A DNA stretch of 64,000 nucleotides from assembly GCF_000471625.1 (NCBI RefSeq), contig NZ_AUSW01000017.1, forward strand, positions 1 through 64,000, written 5' to 3'. Source of the stretch: Psychrobacter aquaticus CMS 56. GTDB taxonomy: Bacteria; Pseudomonadota; Gammaproteobacteria; Pseudomonadales; Moraxellaceae. The position numbers were made by a program, and so were the translations under genes. This document shows, piece by piece, positions 3,643 through 11,863 of the stretch. A model generated the notes under the pieces. It worked only from the letters and a program-made list of their open reading frames with translations, had not been told where the DNA came from and did not search any database. Positions within the stretch are counted from its first letter, which is position 1; every line of letters begins with the position of its first letter.

Positions 3643-4347
3643 CTATTCCGCATCATCTAATAGTTTGTTAAGCGCCTCTACCATAGCGTCATCTATGATG
3701 TTGTTTTCTACATAGCTTACTATCTCATCGATGGTCGTCAGATCCATTTCTCGAATACCTAAGCTCGCTAGCTGCTCATTAATAGAGTCTAAACTTTCAT
3801 TACTTTCAGTATCATCCAATAAATTTTCTTCGAATCTTCCTCTGACGAACCAATACATTTTTTCTAGCACGGTTTCTTTTTTGGTCAACGTAGAATAACC
3901 GTCGCCATAAATGAATAGATTAAAATGATACGGTATCTCTACATCATTAATGAAAAAAGTACGCATGCATTCTAATGTATAGGCTTGAATCTCTTCATTT
4001 TCGACATCTTCATCACCTTTATTATCCTCATCATATTCAATCGCTTCTTCTATCAATCCGCCTAGTATTTGATAGTCGCCTACTTTGATTTTATGATTGT
4101 AAATTATACTAGAATCCGCTATCGCATCGAAAATAATGGCACTGACATCCAAGGTATGATTATCAATATCATAAAATACTTTTAACGCTGGTAAAAACTC
4201 TGTCAGCTTTTCTTCGGGCACTGGAATGAGAAACTGCTGCTCGTATATTTTAATCATGTCTTCAGGCGCATAGGTATTGGCACTATCAGTTTCATTTCTG
4301 CCGGTAGGCTGCATCGGTAAAAAATTATACGGGTTATTATTGGTCAT
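3643..4347 (-). CDS. Acidic protein of unknown function
   Basis: I do not recognise this 234-residue protein. It is strongly acidic, with Glu/Asp clusters at residues 100-118 (EYDEDNKGDEDVENEEIQ) and at 175-190, no signal peptide and no membrane segment. A central region with alternating hydrophobic residues (about 120-170) looks like a small alpha/beta domain. The start codon is preceded by AAGG ten bases upstream. It stands alone, convergent with the TSUP gene. A short hairpin at 3581-3596 separates the two but lacks a T run. Confidence 0.55.
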   Translation of the reverse strand: MTNNNPYNFLPMQPTGRNETDSANTYAPEDMIKIYEQQFLIPVPEEKLTEFLPALKVFYDIDNHTLDVSAIIFDAIADSSIIYNHKIKVGDYQILGGLIEEAIEYDEDNKGDEDVENEEIQAYTLECMRTFFINDVEIPYHFNLFIYGDGYSTLTKKETVLEKMYWFVRGRFEENLLDDTESNESLDSINEQLASLGIREMDLTTIDEIVSYVENNIIDDAMVEALNKLLDDAE

Positions 4348-4854: not shown

Positions 4855-5742
4855 ATGCTCCGCTTGAATTTATCCCCTATATATATTCAGCCAAATAACT
4901 TTGCTGATTACTTATCCAATCAGCAAGAGTATTGTTTGTTTTTAGATATAGATGGCACGCTTGCCAATTTTACGCTCAATCCAAAAGACAGCGTCATCCC
5001 AAGTTCGACACTAGTTCTTTTACAAAAAATCCAAAGTCACGGTGTCAAAATCGCTGCCATCACAGGACGCAGCCTGATAGAAGCAAAGCAGATGCTCTCC
5101 CCTATGACATTACCCATTGCAGCGACTCACGGATTAGAAATAGCGTTTGATGATGAGACAGACAATGACGGTATCACTATTGATACCACTGAGCTGTCTA
5201 CCATTAGGCAAGCCATAATCGACTCTTGCACACCTTATAATGACTTCATTATAGAAACCAAACCCTATTCTGTCGCCTTACACTATCGGCAAAACCCTAC
5301 TCTAGCCGATGTGGCTGATAGCATTGTGTCAACCGTTCTGGACAGTCACGCTGATTGGACAGTAAAGGTAGGAAAATATGTGTTTGAAATTGTGCCAAAA
5401 GGGATAAATAAAGGCGCCGCCATTTTGAGCTTATTAGAAAAAATGCAAACCAATGAGACGTCTTGTGCGATTTTTATCGGTGATGATGTCACTGACGAGG
5501 CAGGATTTGTAGCAATACAAGAGGGAAATGGCGCAATAGAAAACGCCTTCTCGCCAGCAACTGGCATGGGTATTAAAGTGGGTACTGAGCCAACCTGCGC
5601 CCATTATTATGTAAATGACATTTCTGAAGTGACGGTTCTACTTCAAAGCTTTTTAACCTTTTGCCAAACACACGCCACGCTAGCGCCTGACTTAGCAGCT
5701 GTTAGCCCTACTACTAACAAAACAGCGAGACACTTGATATGA
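4855..5742 (+). CDS. otsB: Trehalose-6-phosphate phosphatase
   Basis: OtsB removes phosphate from trehalose-6-phosphate to release trehalose, an osmo- and cold-protectant. The HAD nucleophile motif DIDGTLANF is at residues 31-39, motif II lies in IAAITGRS (about 64-71), the conserved lysine in KGINKGAAIL, and the acidic motif GDDVTDEAGF near residue 208. The 295-residue length fits the family, with about 25 extra C-terminal residues. AAGGA touches the annotated ATG; a TTG three codons later (4864) has that AAGGA at better spacing and may be the true start. It overlaps otsA by four bases (ATGA), so the two are translationally coupled. Confidence 0.92.
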   Translation: MLRLNLSPIYIQPNNFADYLSNQQEYCLFLDIDGTLANFTLNPKDSVIPSSTLVLLQKIQSHGVKIAAITGRSLIEAKQMLSPMTLPIAATHGLEIAFDDETDNDGITIDTTELSTIRQAIIDSCTPYNDFIIETKPYSVALHYRQNPTLADVADSIVSTVLDSHADWTVKVGKYVFEIVPKGINKGAAILSLLEKMQTNETSCAIFIGDDVTDEAGFVAIQEGNGAIENAFSPATGMGIKVGTEPTCAHYYVNDISEVTVLLQSFLTFCQTHATLAPDLAAVSPTTNKTARHLI

Positions 5743-7406
5743 GCCGCTTAATCGTCTTATCCAATCGGGTTAAAATGCCCGACAATAACCCGATGGCAGG
5801 TGGACTTGCGATAGCATTGCACAACGTATTGACAAGAAATTCAGGCATCTGGATGGGCTGGAATGGCGAAATAATTGACCCCTATGCAGACACCCATAAC
5901 AGCTGTGACACCAATGAATTTAGCAATAGCAGGCAAAATGCTTTAGCAAATTCTGTTCTGCAAAGGGCTGATGCAAAAGTCACTTATATGACCACTGCTC
6001 TAACTCGCAAACAATATCAGCATTTTTACTGCGGATTTGCCAATAGTGTGCTGTGGCCACTGTTACACGAGCGCACTGAGTTAATCAGCCAAGCACCAGA
6101 AGATTATACAGGCTATCAAGTGGTAAACCGCCTTTTTGCTAGCCAATTAAAAAAAGTCGTTCAACCCGATGATGTGATTTGGGTGCATGATTATCACTTT
6201 TTAAGTGTGGCGTATCATTGTCGTCAATTGGGCATGAGTAATCGCATCGGCTTTTTCTTGCATATTCCATTTGCACCATTGGCATGTTGGCAACAGCTTG
6301 ATAAAAGCCCTGAACTTATTACGCATCTTGCCCATTATGATGTGCTCGGTACACAAACTCAGAAAGGTAAAGCCAATGCGCTTGCTGTCTTTCGACATTA
6401 CTTAAAAGACAGTATTTTAAGAGATTCGCCGATAAACGTATTAGATGCAGAGCAAAATTTTGCAAGCTCTCATAAACCAGCGAGCGCGCAGTTGATGCTC
6501 AATCTGGACTTAAGCGCCCCGCACTGTTTGGCAATTAATGCCTATCCAATCGGCGTCAATATAGCAAAAATCCAGCAGCAGGTCATGAACTCGTCCTCAT
6601 ATTTATCTTCACAATCTGCCCAGCATAATCAAAAAATAGCGGCTATAAAACCTACCGCCCAACAAATCATTGCGGTAGATAGGATTGATTACTCCAAAGG
6701 TCTATTGAAACGTTTTTCAGCGTATCGCTCTTTTTTACAGCACTATCCGATGTATCAACATCAGCTAAAATTATTACAAATTGCGTGCCCTAGCCGCTTA
6801 GACTTACCTCTTTACCAACAGCTTTACGATGATGTCAGACAAGCAGTGAATGGCGTTAATCAGCATTTTTCGCATAGTGAATGTAGAACAGATGCCTTTA
6901 AAGCCAATGATCTTAAAGCCGATGGTTTGAAAGTTAGCGACGTTAAAGCTGGCACTCTTATAAAAAATTGGCAGGCGATTACATATAGCGAAAAAGTCTT
7001 AAGCCACGAGACAGTAATGACAGCGTTTTGGCATAGTGATATCGGCTGGGTGAATTCACTGAAAGACGGTATGAATCTAGTCGCCAAAGAATACATTGCC
7101 GCGCAAAATCCTGACAATCCAGGAGTGCTGTTGCTGTCACAATATGCAGGGGCTGCCGAGCAAATGCAAGCGGCGGTCATCATCGACCCACACCAGCCCA
7201 AAAGCATCATCCACGGTTTAAAAATGGCTTTAGAGATGCCACTTGCGCAGCGAAAGGAACACCATCAGGAGTTATTGCACGGATTGCAGCAAGACAATTT
7301 GCACGCTTGGCAGCAAAATTTTTTAGATGATGTATACAATGGCAAAAGCCGACAAAAAAGCAGCGAACACCCAGCCGCAGTCCAAATGCCTGAACCACAA
7401 GAATAG
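5739..7406 (+). CDS. otsA: Trehalose-6-phosphate synthase
   Basis: This GT20 enzyme joins UDP-glucose and glucose-6-phosphate. Recognisable blocks are the N-terminal NRVKMPDNNPMAGGLA with its glycine loop, IWVHDYHFLSVAYHCRQLG (about 147-165), AVDRIDYSKGLLKRF (about 311-325) and SLKDGMNLVAKEYIA near residue 440, which binds the nucleotide sugar. At 555 residues it is longer than the usual 450-480. The excess lies in an insert near residues 225-265, a repetitive Lys/Ala/Asp insert near 383-410 and a C-terminal tail. It is the second gene of a six-gene operon; the next start is 13 bases beyond its stop. Confidence 0.92.
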   Translation: MSRLIVLSNRVKMPDNNPMAGGLAIALHNVLTRNSGIWMGWNGEIIDPYADTHNSCDTNEFSNSRQNALANSVLQRADAKVTYMTTALTRKQYQHFYCGFANSVLWPLLHERTELISQAPEDYTGYQVVNRLFASQLKKVVQPDDVIWVHDYHFLSVAYHCRQLGMSNRIGFFLHIPFAPLACWQQLDKSPELITHLAHYDVLGTQTQKGKANALAVFRHYLKDSILRDSPINVLDAEQNFASSHKPASAQLMLNLDLSAPHCLAINAYPIGVNIAKIQQQVMNSSSYLSSQSAQHNQKIAAIKPTAQQIIAVDRIDYSKGLLKRFSAYRSFLQHYPMYQHQLKLLQIACPSRLDLPLYQQLYDDVRQAVNGVNQHFSHSECRTDAFKANDLKADGLKVSDVKAGTLIKNWQAITYSEKVLSHETVMTAFWHSDIGWVNSLKDGMNLVAKEYIAAQNPDNPGVLLLSQYAGAAEQMQAAVIIDPHQPKSIIHGLKMALEMPLAQRKEHHQELLHGLQQDNLHAWQQNFLDDVYNGKSRQKSSEHPAAVQMPEPQE

Positions 7407-7419
7407 TGAGGAGACGTGT

Positions 7420-8508
7420 ATGTCATTATTAAATACCAGAAATTCGTTATTGCTAAATATCAAATCCGCCATAGAAGAAATCATTACCGCTGATAATCAA
7501 TCCATCAGTACATTTGTCATCACCGATACATTGCGCCATGACATTTTAAATATCTTAGTGACTTATAGCGACAAAATTCCTCACCCTGCCAATGGTGACG
7601 GCAACCATTCACAAACCTTGATCCGTTGGCAGATTTTGGCATATGTGGCAGGCATTGACTTAACGATTGCGAAATGGTTCGAGTCGCACTTAGACGCGCT
7701 TAGTATTTTACATGAAGTGGGCTATAGCGAAGCGACACAAGGGCTATGGGCAATTTGGGCAGCAGAAGGTCATCCTGATCCCATACGTTATCAACAAGGC
7801 AAAATCAGTGGCACGAAATCGTGGTGTTCAGGGGCCAATATCGTTCATTATGGCCTCATGACTTACCGAGATGAACAGGGTCAATCACAACTGCTAGTTG
7901 TGAACATGAAGCAAGATGGGATCAGTATCGATAATGGAGCATGGCAAGCGGTCGGCATGCAAGCCACTGATACGGCTACTATACAGTTTCATCAAGTAAC
8001 AGCCAGTAATGTTGGGGCGGCAAATGCATATTTAGAGCGTGTGGGATTTTGGCATGGAGCAGCAGGTGTGGCGGCTTGCTGGTATGGGGCAACGACTTCT
8101 CTAGCTGACTATTTAATAAAGGCGTATCAGCAAAAACCAAATGATTATAAAGCCATGTATTTGGGGCAGATTGGTACGGCATTGGCAGTTACTCAGCAGT
8201 ACTTTCATCACGTTTCTCACTTGATCGACAGTCAACCAAATCGCAGTCATGAACTTGCCATTCGCCAATTAAGAGCAAACGTCGAGCAGCTGGCGCGCGA
8301 AGTCATCGAAACCGTTGGACTGGCATTGGGCGCGGCACCCTTTTGTGGTAATGCCCATTTCGCAAGACTAGCAGCGGATTTGCCTGTGTTTATTCGCCAA
8401 AGTCATGGCGCGTTTGACTTACAAAAGATTGGCGAACTATCAAGTACTTTAACCAGCGAATCAATCACTGCATCAACTGATGGGGAGGAAAATATATGGC
8501 AACTGTAA
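7420..8508 (+). CDS. Divergent acyl-CoA dehydrogenase of the PIG-L/NodS/GT2 cluster
   Basis: A 362-residue member of the acyl-CoA dehydrogenase fold. The middle beta domain carries a KISGTKSWCSGANIVHYGLM block, and the C-terminal helical domain runs from about residue 210. The usual end of the family (an RD pair followed by an EGT motif carrying the catalytic glutamate) is not seen. In its place is a block reading LPVFIRQSHGAFDLQKIGE, so normal acyl-CoA oxidation is doubtful. The start at 7420 is chosen because GTGAGGAG precedes it by seven bases; the longer frame overlaps otsA. It overlaps the PIG-L gene by 13 bases. FAD-dependent oxidation of an unidentified substrate is likely. Confidence 0.82.
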   Translation: MSLLNTRNSLLLNIKSAIEEIITADNQSISTFVITDTLRHDILNILVTYSDKIPHPANGDGNHSQTLIRWQILAYVAGIDLTIAKWFESHLDALSILHEVGYSEATQGLWAIWAAEGHPDPIRYQQGKISGTKSWCSGANIVHYGLMTYRDEQGQSQLLVVNMKQDGISIDNGAWQAVGMQATDTATIQFHQVTASNVGAANAYLERVGFWHGAAGVAACWYGATTSLADYLIKAYQQKPNDYKAMYLGQIGTALAVTQQYFHHVSHLIDSQPNRSHELAIRQLRANVEQLAREVIETVGLALGAAPFCGNAHFARLAADLPVFIRQSHGAFDLQKIGELSSTLTSESITASTDGEENIWQL

Positions 8509-9395
8509 CCAACAGTATGTCAAAAAATCCCGCATGGTCTGACCTAACATTTAGCGATAATGGTACAGGGATCAGTACCAATGCCGTAACCGATCATACG
8601 GCAGCGCCTGAACACCATCACCCAATTGTCGGTGACCGTGTGATTGAAGGTGATGGCACCAGTCAAAACGCTTGGCAAAACTGGCAAGGGTTGCAAGATT
8701 TACCTCGATTGCATATTGCACAAGACTTCTTACCGCATCAGCGTGTGTGTGTCTTTGCCCCTCATCCCGATGATGAAATCTTGGGCTGCGGCGGTATGCT
8801 GCAACAACTGGCGGCAAATGGCAATCCCATCGTCCTTGTCCATGTGACCAATGGCACGCAAAGCCACCCAAACTCGCAAATTTATCCGCCGCACACACTT
8901 GATATCATTCGCCCGCAAGAAAGCCTTGCTGCATTAGACATACTAGGTGTGGCGATTCAAACGACGACTGTTTCTCTAGATTTACCTGACGGTGATGTGT
9001 TCGCCCAGCAAGCACAGTTTAACGAAAAATTGGCCGCTATTATCCAGCCTGATGATATTTTGGTGACGCCCTTTATTCATGATGGGCATCCTGATCATGA
9101 AGCAACAGGGCAAGTGGTCGCCGCATTTGCCAAACAGCACAATCTGGCCTGTTATCAAGCATTAATTTGGGCGTGGCATTGGGCAAAGCCTGACGATAGC
9201 CGCATTCCTTGGCATTCTGCCATTAGATTGGACTTAACTGCGGAGCAGCTACAGCGTAAAACTCAAGCCATTGCTTGCTTTACAAGCCAAATAACCGTTG
9301 ATGAAAGTACGGGTAACTCGCCCATTTTATCGGCTCAAACCATCGCTAGAATTAGCCAGATCTGGGAGGTCTATTTATATGAGCCACACCTCTAA
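8496..9395 (+). CDS. PIG-L family deacetylase
   Basis: PIG-L (LmbE-like) enzymes are zinc hydrolases that remove acyl groups from N-acetyl-glucosaminyl and similar substrates. The zinc motif AHPDDEILGCGG occupies residues 89-100 and the second metal/catalytic block DGHPDHEATG lies near residue 190, so the active site looks intact. The first 75 residues are a less conserved extension found before the core. GGGGAGG precedes the start at good spacing, and the start lies inside the end of the acyl-CoA dehydrogenase gene. The gene in turn overlaps the methyltransferase by 17 bases. The position in the operon suggests it deacylates an amino sugar intermediate (inference). Confidence 0.88.
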   Translation: MATVTNSMSKNPAWSDLTFSDNGTGISTNAVTDHTAAPEHHHPIVGDRVIEGDGTSQNAWQNWQGLQDLPRLHIAQDFLPHQRVCVFAPHPDDEILGCGGMLQQLAANGNPIVLVHVTNGTQSHPNSQIYPPHTLDIIRPQESLAALDILGVAIQTTTVSLDLPDGDVFAQQAQFNEKLAAIIQPDDILVTPFIHDGHPDHEATGQVVAAFAKQHNLACYQALIWAWHWAKPDDSRIPWHSAIRLDLTAEQLQRKTQAIACFTSQITVDESTGNSPILSAQTIARISQIWEVYLYEPHL

Positions 9396-10191
9396 ATCGA
9401 CGACACCAATGAGTCTTACCGATGATTCGTATGTCCCTAAAACAGCCTCGGCTGGCGATGCCGCTATTGATCATCAATCTGATACTTATTCAGAAACCTA
9501 TTTTGATGCCTTATATAGTGACAGTACCGACCCATGGGAGTATCAGACGCGCTGGTACGAAAAACGCAAACGAGATATGTGTCTGGCGGTACTGCCACAA
9601 GCGCAATATAGCAATGCCATTGAATTGGGCTGCGGTAATGGTGTATTCAGCGAATTACTTGCCCGCCGTTGTCAGGCATTGGTCAGTATCGATGGTAATA
9701 AAAATGCGGTAGAACTTTCCACACAACGCTTGGCAGGATTTTCTCATGTCAGAGTGATACAAGGAGTGATTCCTAATGGATTATTGACGCTAGGTGAGGC
9801 ACTTTTAAGTACTTATCCTTTATCAGACTTACCTGCCAATCCATCGCCCTTTGATTTGATTGTCATTAGCGAAATTCTATATTATTTATCACCAACTGAT
9901 ATCGATACAGTAATCGCTTGGATCGAACAAAACCTTGCCATAGGTGGCACGTTATTATGCTGTCATTGGCGCTACCCCATTGATGGCTTTAAGATGACAG
10001 GCGAAATGGTACATCAACGCTTACACCAAACGTTTAACTTGACCAATACTGTGCCAAGCAATAAGACAGTTAATATAAAAAATCATCAAGGGACTTTTAC
10101 GCATCAAAGTAAGATGGTAGATACCGATTTTTTATTGGATGTTTGGCAAAACTCTCCGAAATCAGTCGCTATGCAAGAAAACTTAATATGA
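9379..10191 (+). CDS. NodS-like SAM-dependent methyltransferase
   Basis: A 270-residue class I methyltransferase. The block DPWEYQTRWYEKRKR (residues about 51-65) is the characteristic opening of the NodS/nodulation methyltransferase family. The SAM loop IELGCGNGVFSELLA follows at 81-95 and an acidic post-strand residue in VSIDGNKNAVELS near 107. NodS N-methylates the deacetylated amino group of chito-oligosaccharide in rhizobia, so an amino-sugar substrate is a reasonable guess after the PIG-L deacetylase. The start at 9379 follows GGGAGGT; the longer open frame would be wholly inside the upstream gene. Forty-two bases separate it from the glycosyltransferase. Confidence 0.85.
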   Translation: MSHTSKSTTPMSLTDDSYVPKTASAGDAAIDHQSDTYSETYFDALYSDSTDPWEYQTRWYEKRKRDMCLAVLPQAQYSNAIELGCGNGVFSELLARRCQALVSIDGNKNAVELSTQRLAGFSHVRVIQGVIPNGLLTLGEALLSTYPLSDLPANPSPFDLIVISEILYYLSPTDIDTVIAWIEQNLAIGGTLLCCHWRYPIDGFKMTGEMVHQRLHQTFNLTNTVPSNKTVNIKNHQGTFTHQSKMVDTDFLLDVWQNSPKSVAMQENLI

Positions 10192-10233
10192 CGGATATGA
10201 CAATCAGTAAAATAGCGCGAGGAAGATGGAAAC

Positions 10234-10914
10234 ATGGCTGATATAAAAATCGGTATTGTGATTCCTGCTCATAACGAGGCGATGACTATTAGCGATTGCC
10301 TAGCATCGGTTCAGACCGCTATTGAGCAACTGCCCTCAAACATTTCGGCGTATCCGCTTGTGGTGCTGGATGACTGTACCGATGACACACTGGCGTTAGT
10401 CGAAAACGCAGGTGTTGATTATATAGAGTGTGATTATCATTGTGTAGGAAAGGTGCGAGACCTGGGCATTCGCCATGCTATCAAAAAAGGCGCAACATGG
10501 ATTGCTTGTACGGACGCAGATTCAATCGTGACGCCAGATTGGTTGATGGAGCAAGTTACTCATATTAAGCAGCAGCCTACCGATATGATTTGCGGCGTAG
10601 TAGACGTTGATAACTGGGCGCATCTGACATCACAAACGCGAGAAGCTTATATCGCGCATTATCAAGATATGATGGGACATCGTCATATTCATGGGGCAAA
10701 TTTGAGCTTTAGGGATGAGGCCTATCTCGCCGTTGGTGGCTTTGCACCACTACCTTGCCATGAAGATGTGGATTTGGTCAAAAAATTTGAAAATCAAGGC
10801 TATGCCATTACTTGGAGTAATCATGTCCGTGTGATTACCAGTAGTCGTTTAGAGGCGCGGGCGAATGAAGGTTTTGCGGCATTTTTAGCAAATTTAGAGA
10901 AGAGTAATTTATAA
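10234..10914 (+). CDS. Family 2 glycosyltransferase
   Basis: A GT-A fold family 2 enzyme of 226 residues. It opens with IGIVIPAHNEAMTISDCLAS, the first nucleotide-binding acidic pair is in LDDCTDDT, the metal-binding DXD is CTDADSIVTPDWL near residues 92-104, and the acceptor-side motif is PCHEDVDLVKKFENQG near 172. There is no membrane segment, so it acts in the cytoplasm or at the inner face of the membrane. It is the last gene of the operon, followed by a strong terminator. Sugar donor and acceptor are unknown; with the preceding deacetylase and methyltransferase it probably assembles a small glycoconjugate (inference). Confidence 0.88.
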   Translation: MADIKIGIVIPAHNEAMTISDCLASVQTAIEQLPSNISAYPLVVLDDCTDDTLALVENAGVDYIECDYHCVGKVRDLGIRHAIKKGATWIACTDADSIVTPDWLMEQVTHIKQQPTDMICGVVDVDNWAHLTSQTREAYIAHYQDMMGHRHIHGANLSFRDEAYLAVGGFAPLPCHEDVDLVKKFENQGYAITWSNHVRVITSSRLEARANEGFAAFLANLEKSNL

Positions 10915-11059: not shown

Positions 11060-11100
11060 AAAAAAGCTACAATACATAGGCTTATGTATCGTAGCTTTTG
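11060..11100. terminator. Bidirectional terminator between the ots operon and the NADAR gene
   Basis: The arms AAAAGCTACAATACATA and TATGTATCGTAGCTTTT form a long, nearly perfect stem with a small loop, and A/T tracts on both sides allow termination from both strands. It closes the six-gene operon and the convergent gene on the right. Confidence 0.85.
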
Positions 11101-11131: not shown

Positions 11132-11863
11132 TCAGACCCAGCCAGCTTCCAAAAGGTTCTCGGTATTACTCACTTTAAACTCATGATATAAATTAAAAAA
11201 TACCATTGGATCTTCAACACTATCGAGCAACTCACGTTTATTCAGCGCGACAAACATGGCAAGTGCATAAGCTGCACAGTGGATAGATTTCTTGGGATTA
11301 AACTCAAGATCGGTAAAAGCCTGATATTGCATCACTTCTTCATGCAGCTGAGTATTTTGTTTTAGGGCATTCACATACAGCCAATCATAAAACGTGGTTA
11401 ATGGCTCGACACTCCATTCCATACCAAAATAGTTATAGCCAATCAGTTCACCCGAGGTTATTAAGCGCTCGTCTTTTCTGGTTTGTCGTGGCGGCACACT
11501 TAGCAAATCAGTATAAGGGCCACCGTCCTCAAAAATCATACTGCTTTGAAAGGCATTTTCGACACTGTACTGACTACCATCATCATTCGTGAGCTTTAAG
11601 CTCAATGGACTTAGCGGAAAACTCAACTTGTTGCCAGACTTGCTGGACAGCTCTAACACGTGACTGAAGCCATATTTTTTGCGAATAACTTGATGCATAT
11701 CATTGATGGATTTTTTCTTTTGTCGACTCGCAAACCCTACATGCCGCTCGAACCGAACCATGTCCGTTTTTACCAGATTGTCACTGGCGACTCTCGGCAT
11801 AAATACAGGTCTGTGTTCTACAGCGTCTGGTGTTTGTTGCATAGGGTTCTGTCTTGGTTCCAT
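11132..11863 (-). CDS. Orphan NADAR-family protein (DarT1-associated antitoxin type)
   Basis: The 243-residue protein shows the pattern I associate with NADAR antitoxins of DarT1 systems. An RPVFMP opening is followed by GFASRQKKKSINDMH, LELSSKSGNKLSFPLSPLSL, SVENAFQSSMIFEDGGPYTD, a KDERLITSG segment, and LTTFYDWLYVNAL. NADAR domains remove ADP-ribose from guanine and so reverse DarT1-type DNA modification. No DarT-like ADP-ribosyltransferase lies on either side: the left neighbour is the glycosyltransferase and the right one fadB. It may be a stand-alone protector against foreign toxins or phage defence, or a repair enzyme. AAGG lies nine bases before the ATG. The family call rests on remembered motifs. 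Confidence 0.72.
   Translation of the reverse strand: MEPRQNPMQQTPDAVEHRPVFMPRVASDNLVKTDMVRFERHVGFASRQKKKSINDMHQVIRKKYGFSHVLELSSKSGNKLSFPLSPLSLKLTNDDGSQYSVENAFQSSMIFEDGGPYTDLLSVPPRQTRKDERLITSGELIGYNYFGMEWSVEPLTTFYDWLYVNALKQNTQLHEEVMQYQAFTDLEFNPKKSIHCAAYALAMFVALNKRELLDSVEDPMVFFNLYHEFKVSNTENLLEAGWV

Follow-up and report, generated by a model that had tools for sequence, protein, structure and literature searches.

The stretch analysed here (the window) comprises the first 64,000 nucleotides of contig NZ_AUSW01000017.1 of Psychrobacter aquaticus CMS 56 and contains an operon in which the trehalose synthesis genes otsBA are joined to a set of four genes. The set codes for a putative flavoprotein of the acyl-CoA dehydrogenase (ACAD) fold, a PIG-L deacetylase, a NodS-family S-adenosylmethionine (SAM) methyltransferase and a family 2 glycosyltransferase (GT2). 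All six open reading frames (ORFs) are intact, lie on the plus strand at positions 4855–10914 and are spaced, in the order otsB to GT2, by −4, +13, −13, −17 and +42 bases. The positions, gene order, overlaps and PIG-L and methyltransferase motifs given in an earlier note on this DNA were reproduced. Five of the six proteins match Pfam families above cut-off (Trehalose_PPase, Glyco_transf_20, PIG-L, NodS and Glycos_transf_2), and no hydrophobic membrane stretch was found in any of the six.

Both protein families of the otsBA trehalose pathway are present with their active-site motifs. Trehalose-phosphatase OtsB (4855–5742, 295 aa) matches PF02358 with 102 bits, lies above the TIGR00685 cut-off (125.6 versus 68.05 bits) and carries the motifs DIDGT and GDDVTDE. 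Trehalose-6-phosphate synthase OtsA (5739–7406, 555 aa), with the motifs RIDYSKG and DGMNLVAKE, matches PF00982 with 286.8 bits and lies below the TIGR02400 equivalog cut-off (421.6 versus 564.85 bits). An insert near residues 380–410 of OtsA splits its Glyco_transf_20 match, and split matches at this place also occur in several relatives within the genus. One genus genome (G013) contains a second OtsA-like gene, about 60–71% identical (C36:1106-2611), and no second ACAD-like gene.

The third gene (7420–8508, 362 aa) codes for the ACAD-like protein, to which the earlier note had assigned no role. Its only Pfam match is a sub-threshold one to the ACAD middle domain (30.8 versus 33.3 bits), and its structural model (predicted local distance difference test, pLDDT, 93.0; predicted template modelling score 0.92) has a complete ACAD fold, aligned with Z of about 30 over 317–333 residues. 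In ordinary ACADs the glutamate of the C-terminal EGT motif is the catalytic base, and R..FG is a flavin motif. The residue aligned with this glutamate is S328, and the catalytic glutamate is missing in 123 of 123 family sequences (an alignment that leaves out the plasmid rows and loci L035 and L069), where column 328 is occupied by S (109), P (8), A (3), T (2) and C (1) and no acidic residue occurs at positions 326–330. An EGT string within the last 80 residues is present in 2 of the 123 family members versus 9 of 10 ordinary ACADs, and R..FG in 1 of 123 versus 9 of 10. Residues E88, H90, W113, K133, G138, Y204, F210, G213, R285, R326 and Q327 are invariant in the 123 sequences, which form a family of their own. 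A monooxygenase-like comparison set was left out because it contained ORFs from the wrong strand.

In a profile search of the PDB with this family, the highest scores were obtained for DszC (68.3 bits), TdsC (66.9) and MsuC (57.9), other entries reaching at most 48 bits; these include the sugar nitrososynthases KijD3 (45.4) and DnmZ (34.4). DszC was also ranked first by Foldseek, with about 14–16% structural identity to group D monooxygenases, but neither Foldseek nor VIA-align distinguishes monooxygenases from dehydrogenases here. Group D flavin monooxygenases have the same fold as ACADs and include N-hydroxylating enzymes (PMC6165268). With the glutamate absent, R..FG nearly so and flavin monooxygenases heading the PDB profiles, the ACAD-like protein looks more like an O2-using flavin enzyme, probably an oxygenase or oxidase, than like an acyl-CoA dehydrogenase.

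The PIG-L protein (8496–9395, 299 aa) has the features of LmbE-like deacetylases, with a PF02585 match of 94.3 bits against a cut-off of 28.2 and both metal motifs, PHPDDE and HDGHPDH. PIG-L is its sole Pfam match up to an expectation value of 1, and no match to the polysaccharide-deacetylase family was found at that level. Its nearest solved relatives by PDB profile are PH0499, an unnamed Pyrococcus-type entry (36.6 bits), and diacetylchitobiose deacetylase (35.8 bits), followed by teicoplanin-type deacetylases and, weakly, bacillithiol deacetylase. The bacillithiol and mycothiol equivalogs were all missed: BshB1 (62.4 bits versus a cut-off of 182.5), BshB2 (39.6 versus 195.25) and MshB (17.3 versus 224.35). 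In several Pseudomonas loci (L038, L040, L043, L110, L113 and others) a second PIG-L gene lies just after the set.

The methyltransferase (9379–10191, 270 aa) carries the motif ELGCGNG and matches the NodS family PF05401 with 45.8 bits against a cut-off of 24, but reaches only 61 of the 300 bits required by the NodS equivalog NF041650. The Pfam model matches in 33 of 38 relatives but also in 8 of 14 control genomes, so that the NodS label is weakly informative. Among PDB entries the protein is closest to 4isc, named only “Methyltransferase” (100.4 bits), then to NodS (47.1) and gentamicin N-methyltransferase (28.2). The earlier note's view that the product is an amino-sugar conjugate gains support here: those solved relatives of the PIG-L protein and the methyltransferase that carry a functional name are amino-sugar enzymes.

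The last gene (10234–10914, 226 aa) encodes a small soluble GT2 enzyme with a PF00535 match of 66.9 bits and a highest 19-residue hydropathy of 0.98; its DAD and ED motifs are invariant in 49 family sequences, and its structural model has a pLDDT of 95.0. A Q..RW string is absent from the window protein and present in 11 of 107 relatives, where it is aligned just before DAD. The GT2 relative of loci L022, L062, L065 and L067, which belong to an alphaproteobacterial-type branch, is on the opposite strand, downstream of the operon and not within it.

Conservation of the set reaches further than the earlier note, which placed it in proteobacteria, could tell. Counting the window's own genome, 13 of 25 genomes of the genus have the ACAD-like gene; none of the 13 genomes sampled with them from other families of the order does. 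Twelve of the 13, again counting the window, have the identical six-gene order, so that 11 of the other 12 repeat it, with about 52–92% protein identity, which goes beyond coincidence. In the exception (G002, locus L035) the set is retained, but otsBA is missing and the ACAD-like gene is shortened at its N-terminal end; a single deletion would explain both losses. All 12 genus genomes with otsA have the set, and the 12 without the set also lack otsA; because these genes share an operon, this co-occurrence is no independent functional evidence. Across the phylum, the profile of the ACAD-like family scored at least 170 bits in 34 of 398 genomes, from 23 genera, other matches reaching at most 60 bits except for a 73.7-bit fragment in one of the 34. 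A tblastn search of plasmids gave 44 records, the weakest of which may be ordinary ACADs, including Acinetobacter (20), Cupriavidus, Pandoraea, Comamonas, Kitasatospora, Legionella and Bradyrhizobium. In a FastTree phylogeny the window protein stands beside those of Acinetobacter.

Adjacency was counted in 134 annotated loci with the ACAD-like gene: 10 from plasmids, 12 from the genus, 32 from the phylum sample and 80 from named contigs, the latter being the best 80 of at least 512 confirmed candidates. The loci are partly redundant (the ACAD-like proteins of L047 and L122, and of L106 and L108, are identical), and genes were counted with tblastn and hidden Markov models in place of ORF clustering, which was noisy in high-GC loci. 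The methyltransferase gene was found in 133 of these loci, PIG-L in 117 and GT2 in 112. By tblastn, all four genes lie on the same strand within 4.5 kb in every one of the 12 genus loci, in 18 of the 32 from the phylum sample, in 51 of the 80 from named contigs and in 8 of the 10 from plasmids. These counts indicate a core made of the ACAD-like and methyltransferase genes, with PIG-L and GT2 as frequent partners. No description of the four genes as a unit was found among the open-licence papers searched, one of which tabulates their Acinetobacter baumannii copies (PMC5660220), and none of them was found in the excerpt of a Pseudomonas aeruginosa study (PMC8084333).

The joining to trehalose genes described in the earlier note recurs on separate branches and is not obligatory. 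The order otsB-otsA-ACAD-PIG-L-methyltransferase-GT2 is shared by Comamonas sp. JUb58, Giesbergeria and Delftia. The set lies between otsA and otsB in Comamonas antarctica, and on Acinetobacter plasmids otsAB is convergent with it. In many Pseudomonas loci treZ and glgX lie upstream, and a Legionella locus has an otsB-like gene and a GH65 gene nearby. On the tree of ACAD-like proteins the ots label needs four changes and the treZ label three, starred branches forcing three of each. This tree was made by FastTree only, with long branches flagged and L035 and L069 dropped, and its labels were set by hand (the otsB-like gene makes Legionella “ots”, a match on the other side makes L140 “treZ”, and L046 was not given the “treZ” label). 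An OtsA tree gave no date for the joining, as it contained only linked OtsA rows and two very long branches.

Among the 34 phylum genomes with the set, otsA lies within 10 kb of it in four of the 27 that have the gene, two of them from the window's genus, where position alone would give 0.15. For treZ the figure is 5 of 26, four of the five being from a single genus and 0.12 being expected; one more lies at 10.5 kb. At least one of otsA and treZ is present in 32 of the 34 genomes with the set versus 116 of 364 without it, in a comparison uncontrolled for phylogeny and genome size. Two genomes (G174 and G244) have the set and neither gene, TreS not having been searched for.

Other neighbours agree with the stress context expected by the earlier note. 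At least one of otsA, treZ, katE, LigD and Ku lies near the set in 13 of 32 phylum loci outside the genus versus 1 of 40 control stretches, and with the trehalose genes left out the figures are 6 of 32 versus 1 of 40; the stretches are up to 19.5 kb long, the controls were taken at round coordinates from 20 of the same genomes, and the markers were chosen for stress genes. LigD, with or without Ku, of non-homologous end joining (NHEJ) adjoins the set in a Pseudomonas branch including P. putida and in Achromobacter, and the NHEJ label applies to 17 of 133 rows of the ACAD tree. On two Acinetobacter plasmids katE, a DUF421 gene and a heme-oxygenase-like gene (PF14518 for one) adjoin the set. Dried A. 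baumannii cells are protected by KatE and by the heme-oxygenase-like protein DtpC (PMC13232832), and DksA controls otsA/B and katE in this species (PMC10325922). Immediately upstream of the set, in divergent orientation, Acinetobacter loci L016, L017 and L150 have a DUF2171 gene.

Expression data come from two colistin-dependent A. baumannii mutants, in which ACICU_02432 to 02435, one operon for a glycosyltransferase, a SAM methyltransferase, LmbE and an acyl-CoA dehydrogenase-related protein, were down 31 to 62 fold (PMC5660220). The same table, of 33 genes, lists otsA and otsB as 12 to 50 fold down and a catalase in a two-gene operon as 22 to 31 fold down; the otsAB locus tags are distant from those of the four genes, which section 8 of the paper does not discuss. 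ACICU_02436, adjoining the set, is among the strongest-falling genes of this table. In another A. baumannii record the four genes stand in this order, with 47–74% identity to the reference proteins, so that by sequence the A. baumannii set is the same one. A Pseudomonas fluorescens RpoS table has treZ to glgX as RpoS-dependent and, as excerpted, does not list the cassette (PMC6372562).

Transcription signals were assessed with consensus scans, which say nothing direct about transcription. Between otsA and the ACAD-like gene the plus strand has no terminator-like site, and the 16 promoter-like sites found are no more than chance would give (17.3 expected). The earlier note's statement that the genes end at one terminator is weakly supported. 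A hairpin with a 17-bp stem is present at 11062–11099, between the ends of GT2 and a convergent NADAR-DarT1 antitoxin-family gene (11132–11863, minus strand; PF22397, 281 bits), but the terminator-like call is on the minus strand, and on the plus strand the 3′ arm ends in TTTT with no T run following. On the other side of the operon, the divergent neighbour at 3643–4347 (minus strand) has no Pfam match.

The wide conservation, recurrent joining to otsBA or treZ, stress neighbours, co-regulation in A. baumannii and amino-sugar enzymes among the solved relatives lead us, with moderate confidence, to read the four genes as a general-stress cassette that is co-regulated with trehalose and makes an N-methylated amino-sugar conjugate; the stresses are presumably drying, oxidation and stationary phase. 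The reactions, their order and the product are inferred as follows. GT2 would place an N-acetyl-hexosamine on an acceptor, PIG-L would then take off the acetyl group, and the NodS-type enzyme could N-methylate the freed amine. Acting as a flavin monooxygenase or oxidase, the ACAD-fold flavoprotein might oxidise the product. The resulting small N-methylated amino-sugar conjugate would stand beside trehalose by co-regulation and would not be derived from it. In the window, where otsBA is fused to the set, trehalose and the cassette product are probably made from a single transcript. A more specific version seems improbable at present: the ACAD-fold protein would be a sugar N-oxygenase and the product an N-methylated, N-oxygenated conjugate of hydroxylamine or nitrone type, a radical-trapping protectant that many Pseudomonadota and some actinomycetes would use beside trehalose in drying or stationary phase.

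Several observations weigh against this main reading. PIG-L is missing from 17 of 134 loci, including all seven named Paraburkholderia and three Achromobacter loci, so the deacetylation step is not universal; GT2 is missing from 22 of 134, including all six named Caballeronia loci. Each of the six genomes in which a PIG-L gene was sought has one somewhere, including the four that lack it beside the set; that of G358 is only a weak match (36 bits). The otsA gene occurs in 27 of 34 phylum genomes with the set but is mostly unlinked to it. The GT2 model matches many diverse GT2 structures, its fold pointing to no donor or acceptor. VIA-align ties dehydrogenases and monooxygenases as relatives of the ACAD-like protein (Z 29–31), and a flavin reductase gene is not among the operon genes. 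The co-regulation was seen in mutants of a colistin study, not under drying or salt, and several acyl-CoA dehydrogenases, possibly including the cassette's, fell on drying in Acinetobacter Tol 5 (PMC13130816).

The same genes could instead modify a surface glycan or glycolipid (lipopolysaccharide (LPS), capsule or a membrane lipid), the ACAD-like protein acting on an envelope acyl chain or sugar. Glycan work is common among GT2, PIG-L and methyltransferase enzymes, and DnpA, another PIG-L protein of P. aeruginosa, is encoded in an LPS cluster (PMC6048251). This is possible but unlikely, as all six proteins are without a membrane stretch and the annotated loci, on a marker list chosen for stress, have genes for trehalose, catalase and NHEJ next to the set and not envelope clusters. 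It is less probable still that trehalose or trehalose phosphate is itself the substrate, giving an amino or methylamino derivative of trehalose. The repeated joining to otsBA and treZ, the C. antarctica arrangement and the 32 of 34 genomes with otsA or treZ speak for it; linkage to stress genes unrelated to trehalose is equally common (NHEJ in 17 of 133 rows), and G174 and G244 carry the set with neither gene found.

A true acyl-CoA or acyl carrier protein dehydrogenase with a displaced base, leading to an unsaturated N-acyl amino-sugar, is also doubtful. The complete ACAD fold fits such an enzyme, and VIA-align places isovaleryl- and short-chain acyl-CoA dehydrogenases first, though tied with monooxygenases; no acid stands at the base position or its neighbours in the 123 sequences, and neither an acyltransferase nor an acyl-CoA ligase was found among the operon genes. 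A Nod-factor-type system making a chitooligosaccharide signal, for which the operon offers a deacetylase and a GT2 together with a methyltransferase of the NodS family, is hardly credible given the missed NodS equivalog cut-off, the short soluble GT2 and the lack of NodB-family and NodA-type genes among the six.

Among the species sampled from the phylum, roughly one in twelve (34/398) carries this unnamed set. If the general-stress cassette makes a protectant, this would be an overlooked stress metabolite beside trehalose, bearing on the drying survival of soil, plant and hospital bacteria. The conserved operon opens a direct test of function, which would also assign one to this branch of the ACAD fold.

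Among known systems, Nod-factor synthesis shares with the cassette a NodS-family methyltransferase and the idea of de-N-acetylation followed by N-methylation of a hexosamine. NodB belongs to the polysaccharide-deacetylase family and NodC is a membrane processive synthase; enzymes of these types and of the NodA type are absent among the six proteins, to which the NodA search was limited. The earlier note's “Nod-factor-like” set therefore survives as an analogy of reaction types and not as membership; from the matches obtained, the term fits one gene only. The stress group of A. baumannii (otsAB, DtpC-KatE) is similar in that its copy of the set falls together with otsAB and the two-gene catalase operon (PMC5660220) and that a PF14518 gene lies beside the set on an Acinetobacter plasmid, and it differs in that the set goes unmentioned in the excerpts of the drying papers (PMC13232832, PMC10325922). 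Group D monooxygenases (DszC, TdsC, MsuC; KijD3, DnmZ) share the fold and the top PDB profile scores with the ACAD-like protein, whereas its family has invariant residues of its own at a structural identity of about 14–16%. Mycothiol and bacillithiol synthesis likewise combine a glycosyltransferase with a PIG-L deacetylase (MshB or BshB). Their glycosyltransferases are of family GT4, whereas the cassette has GT2, and its PIG-L protein lies far below the BshB1, BshB2 and MshB cut-offs. The role of MshB illustrates how a glycosyltransferase and a PIG-L deacetylase lead to a small amino-sugar conjugate protecting against oxidation (PMC4101496); where those pathways ligate cysteine, the cassette has a methyltransferase and a flavoprotein.

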